From the NCBI GenBank assembly GCA_015488325.1, contig WFOA01000083.1, positions 1-40,551 on the forward strand: DNA of 40,551 nucleotides, given 5' to 3'. The notes under the pieces are model-generated. The model saw nothing but the letters and a program-made list of their open reading frames with translations, ran no database searches and was not told the DNA's origin. A program made the position numbers and the translations under genes. Of this stretch, positions 32,929-40,551 are shown one piece after another. Numbering within the stretch: position 1 is the first letter of the stretch; each line of letters starts with the position of its first letter. The stretch is from Acidimicrobiia bacterium. GTDB taxonomy: Bacteria; Actinomycetota; Acidimicrobiia; Spongiisociales; ZC4RG35.

Positions 32929-33006
<78 letters not shown>

Positions 33007-33075: not shown

Positions 33076-33096
33076 CCATGGCACATCCATGGCACA
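33076..33096 (+). repeat. Left integrase arm-type direct repeats
   Basis: CCATGGCACA occurs twice with one T between, an 11-bp period. The same motif, CGATGGCACA twice with the same spacing, occurs near the right end at 39187-39207. Paired short repeats at both ends of a tRNA-integrated element are typical of arm-type integrase binding sites. Confidence 0.6.
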
Positions 33097-33170
33097 GGAG
33101 GGGAGAGAGCGCCCGCGGGAGGGTGTTGAGTGGCCCCTGGCAGGGACGCATCGGGAACGCAGCACAGGGC

Positions 33171-33551
33171 GAACACGACGCCGCTCCGGAAGGCGGGCCG
33201 CTTCGCCTGCACTTGTTCCGCCGTCGCATCTGGTACCCGGCAGTGCGGGAATCGGTGGGTGAGCCGATGCGTCCCCACGACCTTCGCCACACCCACGTCG
33301 CCCTCTTCATCGCCGAAGGAGAAGACCCGTACGTCATCTCTCAGCGGCTCGGTCACGCCTCGATCCGCGCCACCTACGACGTCTACGGGCACCTGCTCGA
33401 AGGCCGCGACCGGGAGGCTGCCGACGCTCTCGAGAAAGCTCGCTCTCGATCTCTCGCGAGGTCGCCGCAGGCTTCTTCGGAACGTGCGGTGGTTTCAATC
33501 GAGCTCTCACGCGGCCACCACCTGAGCTCATGGCCTGCCCGACTACCCTGA
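33171..33551 (+). pseudogene. Tyrosine integrase, C-terminal fragment
   Basis: The frame from about 33171 encodes the catalytic half of a phage-type tyrosine recombinase: APEGGPLRLHLFRRRIWYPAV, then RPHDLRHTH (HxxR box), YVISQRLGHASIRATYDVYGHL with the conserved histidine and the nucleophilic tyrosine. The N-terminal arm-binding and core-binding domains and the first catalytic arginine are missing, and no matching sequence is found upstream in any frame. An ATG at 33078 lies in frame, but the residues before about 32 do not resemble the family. The 3' end overlaps the convergent nuclease-like gene by 9 bp. Confidence 0.85.
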
Positions 33552-34730
33552 TGTTCTCCGTCGGCTCCGGCCAGGAAACGGCTCTCCAGGCGGCCAGTCC
33601 GGCGACAGCCCAAAGAGCTCATGCAGTCGGACTGGCGACGGCCGGCGTTCCAGCGAACCGGATGCCTGGTCGACGATCACATGGTCGAAGGGCAACCCTG
33701 CAAGAGTCGAAGCGTCCGGGTTGTGCCAAAGCGTGAGGCTCGCACGAGCGACAGCCGCCGGCGCGACGTGCGAAGAGGCGAGCACTGCGACTACATCCTT
33801 GTAGCGAGGCCCGCTTCTCGTGATCCACAGCCCCTCGGGAACACTCCTCCACGACGGATTGATGCGTCGGGCCTTCATCATGCCAGGATGCTCCCACGCT
33901 GGTCCGTACAGGGCGAGCGCAAGTTCCTCTTCACTCGCCGTCCACCGAGCGTTCAGCACTGCCAGAACGAGAGGCATCTGAGCATCTCGATACTTCCGCG
34001 CCTTGTCCCGGAGATCATTCCTGATCGCTGTGTGGTCATCGACCCAGCGATCCCGTACGGGCCCTAGGTGGAATCCTCGTGTCGGGTAGAAGTGGTCCTC
34101 CCCACGTCGGATCGCCATGACCTCGATTCTCCAGCCTCGGTCCTCGAAGCTTCGAACCACTCCGGCCTTCCCGCGGACCTTCGGAGCCTGTTCGACCGTG
34201 CTGGGATCCAGCCCATCGATCCACTCTTGCACTTGGCTACACAACCTGCGGCCAGACGCCTGGTCAGGCCCTTCGGCCACAACTTCGACATTGATCCAGT
34301 AGCTGGACGTTTCGAGATGCTGCAACCCGTCTAGGACTGGTGCCCGCCGTGCCTCCGACCGGAGCTCGTCCTCGGGATCAAGGAGGACGGTTGCCTCGAC
34401 TATGAAGTGCTCGCCGTCGAGTTCAACGACGAAATCGGGCTTCTTGCCTCCAGGCAAGACGGGGTCGACCCGGATTTCGGCGCCGATTCGAAGGAGAACC
34501 TCGTGCAGGAGCAGCTCCCAGTACGCTCCCCAGAAACCCGATTCGTTACTCCGGAGTCTGGACCGTAGTGGGGCTTGGGCCCCAGAGGGATAGTTGGAGA
34601 ACCACGACTCGAGGACCCTTCTCACTTCGTCCCAAAACGGGCCTGCTACCCGGTTCAGGAACGCGAACTGTCCCTCCGAGTACGAGGCAGGGCTCGTGTC
34701 CCTCCGAGATCTGTTCTCAAACAGCTGCAT
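33543..34730 (-). CDS. Putative PD-(D/E)XK nuclease-like protein
   Basis: This is a 395-residue protein I cannot assign to a named family. The N-terminal third fits the restriction-endonuclease-like core: a helix with conserved acidic residues (GAYWELLLHEVLLRIGAE, about 68-85), then DPVLPGGKKPDFVVELDGEHFIVEATVLLD (about 89-118), where D99 of PDF and E112 of EAT would be metal ligands. The usual lysine is replaced by threonine (E-A-T). The rest is alpha/beta with no clear motif. AAGGAG touches the ATG, so the start is uncertain. It lies in the island beside the DprA operon and on the opposite strand, which suggests a defence-related role by association only. Confidence 0.6.
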   Translation of the reverse strand: MQLFENRSRRDTSPASYSEGQFAFLNRVAGPFWDEVRRVLESWFSNYPSGAQAPLRSRLRSNESGFWGAYWELLLHEVLLRIGAEIRVDPVLPGGKKPDFVVELDGEHFIVEATVLLDPEDELRSEARRAPVLDGLQHLETSSYWINVEVVAEGPDQASGRRLCSQVQEWIDGLDPSTVEQAPKVRGKAGVVRSFEDRGWRIEVMAIRRGEDHFYPTRGFHLGPVRDRWVDDHTAIRNDLRDKARKYRDAQMPLVLAVLNARWTASEEELALALYGPAWEHPGMMKARRINPSWRSVPEGLWITRSGPRYKDVVAVLASSHVAPAAVARASLTLWHNPDASTLAGLPFDHVIVDQASGSLERRPSPVRLHELFGLSPDWPPGEPFPGRSRRRTSG

Positions 34731-36469: not shown

Positions 36470-36576
36470 GGTCTCGACGCGACCGCCTGCCGGTGTCACT
36501 CGTGCGGAGGGCGTGACCAGGCGACCGGTCTCCGCTCCCGTCGACTCGTAGTCCGCGGGTGGTCTGGAGGAATACC

Positions 36577-37527
36577 TTGAGTATCGAACGCACGACGGCC
36601 CTGCGGCTTCCCACCCATACTGCGTTGGCGGCTATCTTCGCCCTTGAGTCCATCAAGGGCTTCGGGCCTAACAAGTTCAAAGAGATTGATGCAGTCGGCC
36701 GTACTCCTGAAGAAGTCCTCGATGCTCCCGACTTGTTGCCGACGAGAGGTAAGCGGGGAGCGGCTCTCCGGGAAGCCATTGCCGCTTTGCCGCAGAATGT
36801 GCGGCTGGACGCAAGAGAGCGGGCAGAGCGGCAGCTTGCGCTCGCCACCGAGTACAACTCCCACATCCTCACCTACAACGATCCTGCGTACCCCAGACGC
36901 GTGTACGCATCCAACAATCCTGTCCCAGCGCTCTTCGTACGTGGTCCGGTCGAGCTGCTATCGCAGGATTCGGCTGTCGCCTGCGTGGGGTCGAGGTCGA
37001 TCCGAGAACCGTATGTCAGCGCACTGCGTCGGATCTCCGAGTATCTCGCGATCAGTCGGATCACTCACGTTTCAGGGTTCGCACTGGGGGCAGACACCAT
37101 TGGTCACACCGCGGTTCACGAGGCAGGTGGTAAGACGATCTGCGTGATGCCCTCGGGGCTCGATGCTCCCTTCCCCCCGGAGAACCGGGAGCTCTGGAAG
37201 GAGTTCCTGGCTTCCGAACGAGCCGTCTTCGTGAGCGAGTTCTTTTTCCATCGGCGAGCTTCCGCGTTGACCCTTCGCAAGAGGAACAAGCTGATCGTTG
37301 CGCTTGCCGACGGCCTCTTTGTCGCTCAGTCCTCGGCATCGGGTGGCGCCATGAACGCATACCGCTTCGCGATCGAACAGAAGAAACCCGTGTCGACTCT
37401 CCAGGCAGACGGCTCCAGCGACACCTCCGGAAATCAGGAGATCGCAGATGCCCACCGACCGCGTCTCACCGTCTTCGACCCTGCTAGGCCCCTCGACGGG
37501 TTCACCGAATGGGTGCTGCGGCTGTAG
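36577..37527 (+). CDS. DprA/Smf-like protein (SLOG superfamily)
   Basis: This is a 316-residue protein with a TTG start at 36577, six bases after GGAGG. A helical N-terminal region (KGFGPNKFKEI, 1-95) precedes the DprA Rossmann core: YNDPAYPRRVY at about 100-110, VACVGSRSI, then VSGFALGADTIGHTAVHEAGGKTICVMPSGLDAPFPPEN at about 165-203 and RKRNKLIVALADGLFVAQSSASGGAMN at about 234-260. These match the conserved SG-GxD-xAH, GLD-P and RN-I-L-SG blocks of DprA. The C-terminal winged helix of chromosomal DprA is lacking. No competence machinery is nearby. It overlaps the HAD gene by 19 bp. I infer a conflict/defence role rather than transformation. Confidence 0.88.
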   Translation: MSIERTTALRLPTHTALAAIFALESIKGFGPNKFKEIDAVGRTPEEVLDAPDLLPTRGKRGAALREAIAALPQNVRLDARERAERQLALATEYNSHILTYNDPAYPRRVYASNNPVPALFVRGPVELLSQDSAVACVGSRSIREPYVSALRRISEYLAISRITHVSGFALGADTIGHTAVHEAGGKTICVMPSGLDAPFPPENRELWKEFLASERAVFVSEFFFHRRASALTLRKRNKLIVALADGLFVAQSSASGGAMNAYRFAIEQKKPVSTLQADGSSDTSGNQEIADAHRPRLTVFDPARPLDGFTEWVLRL

Positions 37528-38105
37528 TCGTGGATCTAGACGGAACCATCTGGGACAGCGAGCCGTGGTTCGCGTCGATACTGGCGACGGCTGCCGGCAT
37601 CGACCCCGAACTGGCGATCTGGCGACTCAGCCACACACCTGTGGCGACGTTGATACGACGCACACGGGGGATGAGCCCAGCAACATTCTCTAGACAAGCA
37701 GAGAAGGCCATCAATGACCTACCCCTATATCCGGGTGTCCAGGAGACACTCTCCGCCTTGAGCTCGGCAGGAGTGGCACTGGGAGTCGGAACGAGCTTGC
37801 CCGGCTGGATCGCGAAACCCATGTTGGCACACACCGGCCTCGCACCCTTCTTCCGGGCGGTCGTTCATTCCAGCAATACGATTCCGCGCAAGCCCAGTGC
37901 CGCGTTCCTGGACTCTGTTCTGCGGCAGCTGGGCGAGCATCGAGGCCAGGAGGTGTGGTACGTAGGAGACCGTGAGGTTGATGCGGCAGCGGCTCATGCT
38001 GCTGGCGTAGCGTTCGCCTGGGCCAGCTACGGATACGGACCCCGCCCGGATTCGCCCATACGGAAGGTGCTACACAGCTTCCCGGACCTGCTCGAAGTAC
38101 TGTGA
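37509..38105 (+). CDS. HAD superfamily phosphatase
   Basis: This is a 198-residue hydrolase with all HAD motifs: DLDGT with D9 and D11, T95/S96 in GVGTS, K128 in IPRKPSAAF, and GDREVD with D154 and D158. A small helical cap lies between motifs I and II (about 15-75), as in phosphoglycolate-phosphatase-like members that act on small phosphorylated molecules. The ATG at 37509 lies inside the end of the DprA-like gene, so translation is coupled. In context it probably acts on a nucleotide- or sugar-phosphate made or bound by its partners. Confidence 0.85.
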   Translation: MGAAAVVVDLDGTIWDSEPWFASILATAAGIDPELAIWRLSHTPVATLIRRTRGMSPATFSRQAEKAINDLPLYPGVQETLSALSSAGVALGVGTSLPGWIAKPMLAHTGLAPFFRAVVHSSNTIPRKPSAAFLDSVLRQLGEHRGQEVWYVGDREVDAAAAHAAGVAFAWASYGYGPRPDSPIRKVLHSFPDLLEVL

Positions 38106-38172
38106 TGAGCCCCTCCTTCACCGCCACCCGACCCAGTCGCCCGCCTAAGAGGCATAGCTCTCTGAGTACCGA

Positions 38173-39072
38173 ATGGCTGACATCGACTTCACCGGAGTGA
38201 TCATCGCGAAGGCCGAGGAGGCTCTCGCCAACGGACAAGCAGGTCGGGCCGCCGAGTGGCTCGCACGGCTGAAGCCCAACGAGCGCCCCTCGGACCTTGA
38301 GGAATCAGCCTGCTACGCCGCGGCGAAGGAGGCAATGGCGAAACTCCGCTGGGGAAGCGCTCAGGCATTCTTGGAACGGGCGAACGCCGCACGTCATGAT
38401 CCCTTCGTGCAGCGACGGCTCGGCCTCATCCGTCAACGATCTTCTCTTGAGCTCGATCAAGAGTCGCTGGAGCTCGTGGCGGCCCGGAGCCGCCGGGCGA
38501 CCCGGCTCCGCACCGACCTGTTGCAACCGGAAGTGTCAGGCGTGTGGGCCTGGGCGGCCTACATCTCTCGTGGCTACGAGAGCGGGTCCCCTATGAGCCG
38601 TTTCATCCGCTACAGCAAGGAGTCCTTGCCTCCCGAAGAACAGCAAGCGATGGCGCGAATCGGCGGATCAGTTCTTTGCAGGTACATCGAAGAGGAAACT
38701 CCGATACTCGCTCACGCGGATGTTGTCGTTTCTGTCCCGGCGAATCCCGGCCGATACTCCTCACGGGGTTGGAGCCTTCCAGACGAGCTGGCCCGGAGAA
38801 TCGAAAAGCACCTTGGCCTGCCGTTTCTCTTCGGCGCACTCGAATCACAGGCTGGGGATCTAGAGCTTCGCGGCATGAGCTGGGCTGATCGCCGGCGTGC
38901 CGTCAGAGGCAGCATGGTGGCTAGGGAACTCGGCGACGGTCAAGGCCGAACCGTACTCGTCGTGGATGACGTCATCACGTCGGGTGCGACCCTCAGAGAA
39001 GCCGCTCGCCAACTTCGGGGCGCGGGCGCCGCAGATGTCCTCGGTGTTGCGCTTACACACACAGAGGGATGA
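38173..39072 (+). CDS. ComF-like phosphoribosyltransferase with helical N-terminus
   Basis: This is a 299-residue protein. Residues 1-105 are helical and repeat-like (EEALANGQAGRAAEWLARLKP, AMAKLRWGSAQAFLERANAA), reminiscent of TPR-type repeats. From about 120 it follows ComF: SRFIRYSKESLP, VVVSVPANPGRYSSRGWSLPDELARRI, RRRAVRGSMVA, and the PRPP-binding loop VLVVDDVITSGATL (261-274). It lies 67 bp after the HAD gene on the same strand and is probably in the same transcript. The type I PRTase fold transfers or releases phosphoribosyl groups; substrate unknown. Confidence 0.85.
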   Translation: MADIDFTGVIIAKAEEALANGQAGRAAEWLARLKPNERPSDLEESACYAAAKEAMAKLRWGSAQAFLERANAARHDPFVQRRLGLIRQRSSLELDQESLELVAARSRRATRLRTDLLQPEVSGVWAWAAYISRGYESGSPMSRFIRYSKESLPPEEQQAMARIGGSVLCRYIEEETPILAHADVVVSVPANPGRYSSRGWSLPDELARRIEKHLGLPFLFGALESQAGDLELRGMSWADRRRAVRGSMVARELGDGQGRTVLVVDDVITSGATLREAARQLRGAGAADVLGVALTHTEG

Positions 39073-39313: not shown

Positions 39314-39361
39314 GGCTCATAACCCGAAGGTCGCGGGTTCAAATCCCGCCCCCGCTACGAA
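39314..39361 (+). other. attR core (duplicated 3' end of tRNA-Met)
   Basis: Identical over 48 bases to the 3' part of the tRNA gene and its immediate flank. The 5' half of a tRNA is absent, so this is the duplicated attachment site and not a second tRNA gene. Confidence 0.88.
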
Positions 39362-39541: not shown

Positions 39542-40551
39542 GGACAGGATGGACGTTTTGGAGTGGCTGCGCAACCAGCTCGAGGACGCGGATGCGGATC
39601 TGTTGGGTGAGATGGTGCGCACTTTCGCGGAGACGCTGATGTCGGCCGAGGCCGACGTGTTGTGCGGCGCCTCTTATGGGCAGCGGTCTGTGGAGCGGGT
39701 GAACCGGCGGAACGGGTATCGGGGTGTGCCGGTGGGACACGCGGGTGGGCAGCATCGACCTGCGCATCCCGAAGCTGCGGGAGGGCTCGTATTTCCCTGG
39801 CTGGCTGTTGGATGCCCGCACCCGGGCGGAGCGGGCGTTCATTCAGGTGGTGGCTGAGGCCTACGTCAAGGGGGTGTCCACCCGGCGGGTCGCCAAGCTG
39901 GTGGAGACCCTGGGGGTCGCCTCGTTGTCGAAGTCGCAGGTCTCGGAGATGGCGAAAGACCTCGACGAGCTGGTGGCCGACTTCCGGCATCGGCCCCTCG
40001 ATCAGGGCCCCTACACGTATGTGTGGGCCGACGCCCTCACCATGAGGGTGCGGGAAGGCGGCCGGGTGGTCAACGTCGCCTGTCTGACCGCCACCGCCGT
40101 CAACGCCGACGGGCATCGGGAGATCCTCGGCCTCGACGTCACCACCTCCGAAGACGGCGCCGGCTGGCTGGCGTTCCTCAGAAGCCTGGTCGCTCGGGGC
40201 CTGTCGGGAGTGCAGCTGGTCATCTCTGATGACCACCCCGGCCTCGTCGACGCCATCTGCGCCACCCTCCCCGGTGCGGGCTGGCAGCGGTGCCGCACCC
40301 ACAACGCTCGAGAGCCTGCTCACCAAGGTGCCCAAGGCCTCGGAGGCGATGGTGGCCACCATGGTGACGCCGCCGTCTTCGCCCAGGCCCTCCGCCGACG
40401 AGGTCTGGGCCCAGCATCGCCGGGTCGTCGACCACCACCCTCCAGGTGGGCCTCGTCGACGCCGCCGACCACCTCGACCAAGCCGCCGCCGACCTGCTGG
40501 CCTTCACCGGATTCCCCAAAGCCCACTGGCGGCAGATCCGGTACCAGCAAC
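39534..40551 (+). pseudogene. IS256-family transposase, frameshifted and partial
   Basis: The GTG start with GAGGAGG upstream opens MITDRMDVLEWLRNQLEDADADLLGEMVRTFAETLMSAEADVLCGASYG...RVNRRNGYR, an IS256/Mutator-type N-terminus. The frame shifts near 39725 and resumes as RWDTRVGSIDLRIPKLREGSYFPGWLLDARTRAERAF. The DDE-domain parts TYVWADALTMRV and LVISDDHPGLVDAICATLPGAGWQRCRTH follow. Further shifts occur near 40305 (LLTKVPKASEAMVATMV resumes) and near 40430-40450 (QVGLVDAADHLDQAAADLLAFTGFPKAHWRQIRYQQ resumes). At least three shifts make it inactive; the 3' end is outside the window. Confidence 0.85.

Follow-up and report, generated by a model that had tools for sequence, protein, structure and literature searches.

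We analyzed a 40,551-nucleotide stretch of DNA, here called the window, from an Acidimicrobiia bacterium (contig WFOA01000083.1). Three genes at positions 36577–39072 probably form a divergent three-gene relative of the ShosTA/PsyrTA (RqlHI) class. They encode a DprA-like protein, a HAD phosphatase, and a phosphoribosyltransferase (PRT); the PRT would be the toxin, the HAD would help it, and the DprA-like protein would be the antitoxin and sensor. DprA-PRT pairs are a known class of toxin-antitoxin or defense systems, comprising ShosTA, PsyrTA, and RqlHI. We call the trio ShosTA-like, rather than a ShosTA member, because its HAD and PRT are unfused and its DprA and PRT show mixed affinities. 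As judged by sequence comparison, what is new is this split, divergent make-up, for which close relatives were not found. The exact trio had no close copy in 296 genomes of the class (searched with the DprA), 396 of the phylum (searched with the PRT), or 138 of the order (searched with the HAD). Searches of IMG/VR with all three proteins, and of genome contigs with the PRT, likewise returned no confirmed relative.

A three-gene set on a tRNA-linked island

The three open reading frames are intact and collinear, all on the forward strand, in the order DprA-like, HAD, PRT. The DprA/ShosA-like gene (36577–37527, +) encodes a SLOG Rossmann core without a winged helix. PF02481 (DNA_processg_A, E 7e-42) is its only Pfam match, and no winged-helix match was obtained with Pfam. 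Its start is a TTG at 36577 with GGAGG six bases ahead; an alternative in-frame start is a GTG at 36559. The gene for a HAD-IA phosphatase with all catalytic motifs follows (ATG at 37509, to 38105, +; HAD_2 E 5e-22, Hydrolase E 4e-19), overlapping the DprA-like gene by 19 bp. After a gap of 67 bp comes the gene for a ComF/ShosT-type PRT with a predicted helical N-terminal extension (ATG at 38173, to 39072, +; Pribosyltran E 2e-8). None of the three proteins has a RecQ-type helicase domain by Pfam. A reading of the DNA made earlier from the sequence alone (the sequence-only reading) had placed the three genes and their 19-bp overlap correctly, and had also recognized that the DprA lacks its winged-helix end.

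The trio lies next to a tRNA-derived repeat. A tRNA-Met gene (32929–33003, +; ARAGORN) forms the integration site, and a 48-bp repeat over its 3′ part marks attL (32959–33006, +). The second copy, attR (39314–39361, +), is an exact match, identical at 48/48 bp, and the island between the repeats is ~6.3 kb. Because the 3′ part of the tRNA-Met recurs mismatch-free over 48 bp, we regard the trio as cargo in the right-hand part of an integrated island of small size. Just inside attL is the C-terminal remnant of a tyrosine recombinase (integrase; 33078–33551, +; Pfam Phage_integrase E 2.5e-7), and the island also carries a broken IS3-type element. With the tRNA, the perfect repeat, and the integrase remnant all in place, the tRNA-integrated island seen in the sequence-only reading is confirmed. 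The trio has a G+C content of 61–63%, compared with about 68% for the window’s first 29 kb. When an empty site was sought in a genome of the same genus, the matching contig stretch had no tRNA match. Elsewhere in the same genome as the window there is another DprA, of canonical type, on contig C145, as well as a ComF-type match on contig C6.

Two further genes were observed in this region. A 395-amino-acid protein on the same island (33543–34730, −) has a PDF...EAT-type nuclease-like stretch. It had no match in a Pfam search and weak PADLOC matches to PD-T7-5 (E 7e-5) and PD-T7-1, and is a possible second defense gene of the island. Immediately to the right of attR, an IS256/Mutator-type transposase gene runs from 39504 to the contig end at 40551 and is split by a frame change near 39724–39857.

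The DprA-like protein

We built two DprA profiles, one from 25 proteins of DprA-PRT loci (system) and one from 26 canonical proteins, and scored them by the leave-one-out method. All 25 system DprAs scored at least +41 bits toward the system profile, and all 26 canonical DprAs scored −45 or lower. The window DprA gave 157.8 bits with the system profile vs 134.1 with the canonical profile, a difference of +23.7 that falls between the two sets; on this score it leans to the system side. The same score divided 30 further loci of the phylum into 8 system-type and 22 canonical DprAs. A PRT gene adjoins 7 of the 8 system-type DprAs, vs 0 of the 22 canonical ones (Fisher p 4e-6). One of the eight system-type loci, L219, had already served in training as L070.

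The sequence-only reading had proposed comparing the DprA tree with that of known systems, and the outcome was divided. The profile leans toward the system proteins (+23.7), whereas in a tree without a long-branch partner the window protein joins the canonical clade, with support of 42/15. Because of the long branches, no single DprA tree assigns the window protein to either side. Its motifs are mixed as well: RNKLI is canonical-like, and VAQS and GGAMN are system-like. PADLOC gave a ShosA match for the window DprA, and the same profile strongly matched the canonical DprAs of E. coli and B. subtilis used as controls. We therefore dropped the PADLOC match as proof of class, since the profile also finds housekeeping DprA.

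HAD phosphatases accompany PRT and DprA in other genomes

Aligned HAD-PRT fusions served as the query for a scan of GTDB genomes and IMG/VR. DprA adjoins 12/12 loci with the full HAD-PRT architecture (two of them, both viral, near-identical), vs 0/71 loci that matched by the HAD part only (Fisher p 1e-14). Fusions occur in Pseudomonadota and Acidobacteriota as well as in phages, and in those seen the HAD is joined to the PRT and never to DprA. In a genome of the window’s own family (G553) and in Sinorhizobium fredii psfSMH12b, DprA is followed by a single protein in which HAD and PRT are joined to a zinc ribbon of the topoisomerase type. In the Pf phage PfAC02a, the fusion is annotated as ShosT and adjoins ShosA and Kiwa (PMC11878078). 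These loci, together with that of Psychrobacter pA3H5, resemble the trio in having the three domains with DprA adjoining and with HAD and PRPP motifs intact. Unlike the trio, they are fused and often end in the zinc ribbon; the window has neither feature.

Unfused PRT-DprA-HAD trios were found on plasmids of S. meliloti (pHRB800), R. leguminosarum (CB782, L064), and Segatella copri; the first and last are loci L082 and L084. They match the window in having three genes with the same three folds. They differ in having the PRT first and the HAD last, a short-cap HAD of about 165 amino acids, and a PRT without the extension. The sequence-only reading had named occurrence in this genome alone as a reason to give up its proposal; indeed no close relative of the exact trio was found, whereas the DprA-HAD-PRT architecture is found elsewhere. 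Among the actinobacterial loci with a system-type DprA, one of 8 has a HAD, and most DprA-PRT pairs there are without one.

The crystallised ShosT (PDB 8zvb/8zvc/8zvd, 9w2p, and 9w2q) is a full-length match to the P2_4C9 protein. This ShosT (L085, 1199–2470) is collinear with the HAD-PRT fusions over both halves (hhalign probability 95, E 3.7e-8). Its HAD match is weak: motif I reads SIAD, not DLD, and the catalytic DxD is lost. SopEPhi-type ShosT is a 193-amino-acid PRT without a HAD, so the HAD-PRT fusion is not universal in the ShosTA class. These alignments indicate that the class has long included the HAD, which most members seen here keep intact and which has decayed in the ShosT that was crystallised. 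The earlier idea that the HAD and the extension set the trio apart as a distinct, larger system is not supported, as the HAD recurs in the class in fused form (in several phyla), as a separate gene, or decayed in ShosT.

ShosTA (DprA-PPRT; ShosT 8zvb/8zvc/8zvd, ShosA 9vzo) shares with the trio a DprA without a winged helix, a PRT with a PRPP loop, and a location on mobile elements; the N-terminal half of the crystallised ShosT is HAD-like as well. In contrast to that single polypeptide, the HAD and PRT of the window are two genes. The window HAD has an intact DxD and a larger cap, and the window PRT is closer to ComF and carries its helical extension where ShosT has the HAD half.

Several of the loci have features of their own. 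In the Segatella copri plasmid (L084, 983–2951), three successive PRT-type genes lie ahead of DprA and HAD. In Klebsiella pS161-2.2 (L078, 5066–10665) and E. coli pEc1675 (L079), DprA is followed by a 1558-amino-acid HAD-PRT-DUF559-RecQ fusion, which links the ShosT and PsyrT/DpdF architectures; the pEc1675 copy is interrupted by IS1. The DprA cores of the HAD-PRT systems in G553 (L068) and in Terriglobia SB0664 (L093) are nearly identical across two phyla, which we therefore attribute to recent horizontal transfer.

The HAD phosphatase of the trio

All four motifs of the window HAD are intact, as the sequence-only reading had found: DLDGT (residues 9–13, 37533–37547, +), TS at 95–96, K128, and GDREVD (GDxxxD) at 153. 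The protein aligns with the HAD half of the HAD-PRT fusions at an hhalign probability of 98.6 and is equally similar to Gph (phosphoglycolate phosphatase) controls and to system HADs. Its cap has about 30 residues more than those of all 20 system HADs, in which motif I is likewise intact (20/20). In a tree, its position is nearer to Gph, though not significantly so (p-AU 0.22 against joining the system clade). Given the larger cap, the Gph-like match, and the tree position, the window HAD may be an independent recruit.

The 19-bp overlap with the DprA gene, the joint occurrence of the same three domains in distant phyla, and the intact motifs, both here and for motif I in the system HADs, argue against taking the HAD for a bystander. 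Such a bystander would be an independently captured passenger or metabolic gene of Gph/nucleotidase type, outside the mechanism of a ShosTA-like pair made by DprA and PRT. We consider this unlikely, although several points speak for it: the equal closeness to Gph, the larger cap, the lack of fusion, the scarcity of HADs among actinobacterial DprA-PRT pairs, and the crystallised ShosT, in which HAD catalysis is dispensable because the DxD is lost.

An independently recruited HAD could also fit within the ShosTA-like reading. In one version, which we hold to be possible but would not favor, an active Gph-type phosphatase stands in trans for the short-cap HAD half of ShosT while a helical domain takes the place of that half on the PRT, making the trio a convergent reassembly of DprA, HAD, and PRT. 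If so, the HAD reaction would be a needed step in some lineages.

The phosphoribosyltransferase

PADLOC matched the window PRT to PsyrT (E 2.5e-10) and ShosT (E 7e-8). The PRPP loop VVDDVITSGAT (residues 263–273, 38959–38991, +) is intact by sequence and motif reading, in line with the sequence-only reading, and D265, D266, T269, and G271 are invariant in alignments A2/A3. The residue previously called D264 is really D265/D266, because the loop begins at residue 263. Profile scores were 106 bits for ComF vs 70 for system PRTs; the ComF score is favored here because the ComF set was picked by likeness to the window PRT. The PRTs of other actinobacterial DprA-PRT pairs likewise lean to ComF.

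A predicted model of the window PRT has a mean pLDDT of 72, with a good core and a poor stretch at residues 54–109 (pLDDT under 50). Its closest structural match is ComF (7p0h, Z 16.9), followed by ShosT (8zvc, Z 12.9; 8zvd, Z 12.6), and the next match has a Z of 11.2. A PDB sequence search with the PRT gave weak generic PRT matches only. The zinc finger of ComF is absent, as there are no CxxC pairs in the sequence. The N-terminal extension (about residues 1–110) is helical in a low-confidence prediction, and residues 1–130 had no relative among the open reading frames of the fetched loci. The extension had earlier been described as helical and TPR-like; the helical part stands as a low-confidence prediction. 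We do not adopt the TPR identity, as the model is too weak there (pLDDT under 50 for residues 54–109) and no relative was found.

Four actinobacterial DprA-PRT pairs (L218, L219, L071, and L238) have PRTs with ComF-like cysteine-rich N-termini and are possible intermediates between ComF and ShosT. In another genome (G061; L246, 2610–6298), a system-type DprA and a ComF-like PRT form a pair ~0.7 kb ahead of a canonical DprA gene.

ComF/ComFC with canonical DprA provides the nearest PRT fold and sequence to those of the window, again with a DprA partner; in competent bacteria, ComFC interacts with DprA (PMC9005727), and a DprA/ComF-like pair stands beside the canonical DprA of one actinobacterial genome. 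The trio could accordingly be a competence-like DNA-processing operon of DprA and ComF that moved onto the island and aids recombination of incoming single-stranded DNA, with no toxin involved. The missing ComF zinc finger and DprA winged helix, the genome’s own canonical DprA and ComF-type genes elsewhere, and the flanking tRNA att repeats make such an operon improbable in our view.

Proposed mechanism and significance

The sequence-only reading had the PRT and HAD making and removing a phosphorylated nucleotide-like signal, sensed by the SLOG-fold DprA as effector; all three folds handle nucleotides, and the SLOG domains of other systems have nucleotide ligands, but the window DprA has no attached effector domain, and we give this model very little credence. 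Work on RqlHI (PMC4670107) and on ShosTA, the latter as summarized in PMC12593503, points instead to the PRT as the toxic part and DprA as its restraint. In RqlHI, DNA damage and filamentation stem from the PRT domain, mutation of the PRPP site abolishes toxicity, and the DprA-like RqlI binds RqlH via its PRT domain (PMC4670107). According to the summary of Pu et al. 2025 in PMC12593503, ShosT is a phosphoribosyltransferase and pyrophosphatase that disturbs purine metabolism and damages DNA, ShosA binds DNA, and T7 Gp0.7 is the trigger. A DprA-PRTase pair of P2-like phages protects E. coli from T7 and lambda (PMC9122126). RqlHI and PsyrTA resemble the window in pairing a DprA-like antitoxin with a PRT-dependent toxin, roles that are putative at the window, and differ in that their toxin is a RecQ-PRT fusion, whereas the window is without a helicase.

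By analogy with these relatives, we propose toxin, antitoxin, and defense roles for the trio. The PRT would bind PRPP and pass its phosphoribosyl group to an acceptor that is a nucleobase or resembles a nucleotide; the outcome would be distorted nucleotide pools and DNA damage. For the HAD, we purely infer both a substrate and joint action with the toxin: it would complete the activity of the toxin as its other half, pulling the reaction forward by cleaving pyrophosphate or the phosphorylated PRT product. The DprA-like protein would bind both DNA and the PRT, holding the PRT inactive until infection or DNA stress.

In favor of this ShosTA-like reading, we counted the DprA adjacency (12/12 vs 0/71), the unfused trios, the alignment of ShosT with the fusions, the structural match to ShosT, the DprA profile score (+23.7), the PRT beside 7/8 system-type DprAs, and the RqlI-RqlH work. 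Against it, we counted the DprA tree, the mixed DprA motif, a PRT nearer to ComF, the cap and tree position of the HAD, and the unspecific ShosA profile of PADLOC. The sequence-only reading described the trio as a candidate DprA-PRT defense module that lies on a tRNA-linked island and belongs near the DprA-PPRT/ShosTA class, and this description is upheld.

If the ShosTA-like reading is right, many ShosTA-type systems include a phosphatase step, even though the ShosT whose structure was solved has lost the HAD DxD. The true substrate and product of the PRT toxins would then have to be sought in systems whose HAD is intact, whether fused or separate, and because the genes are separate at the window locus, each activity could be removed there alone.
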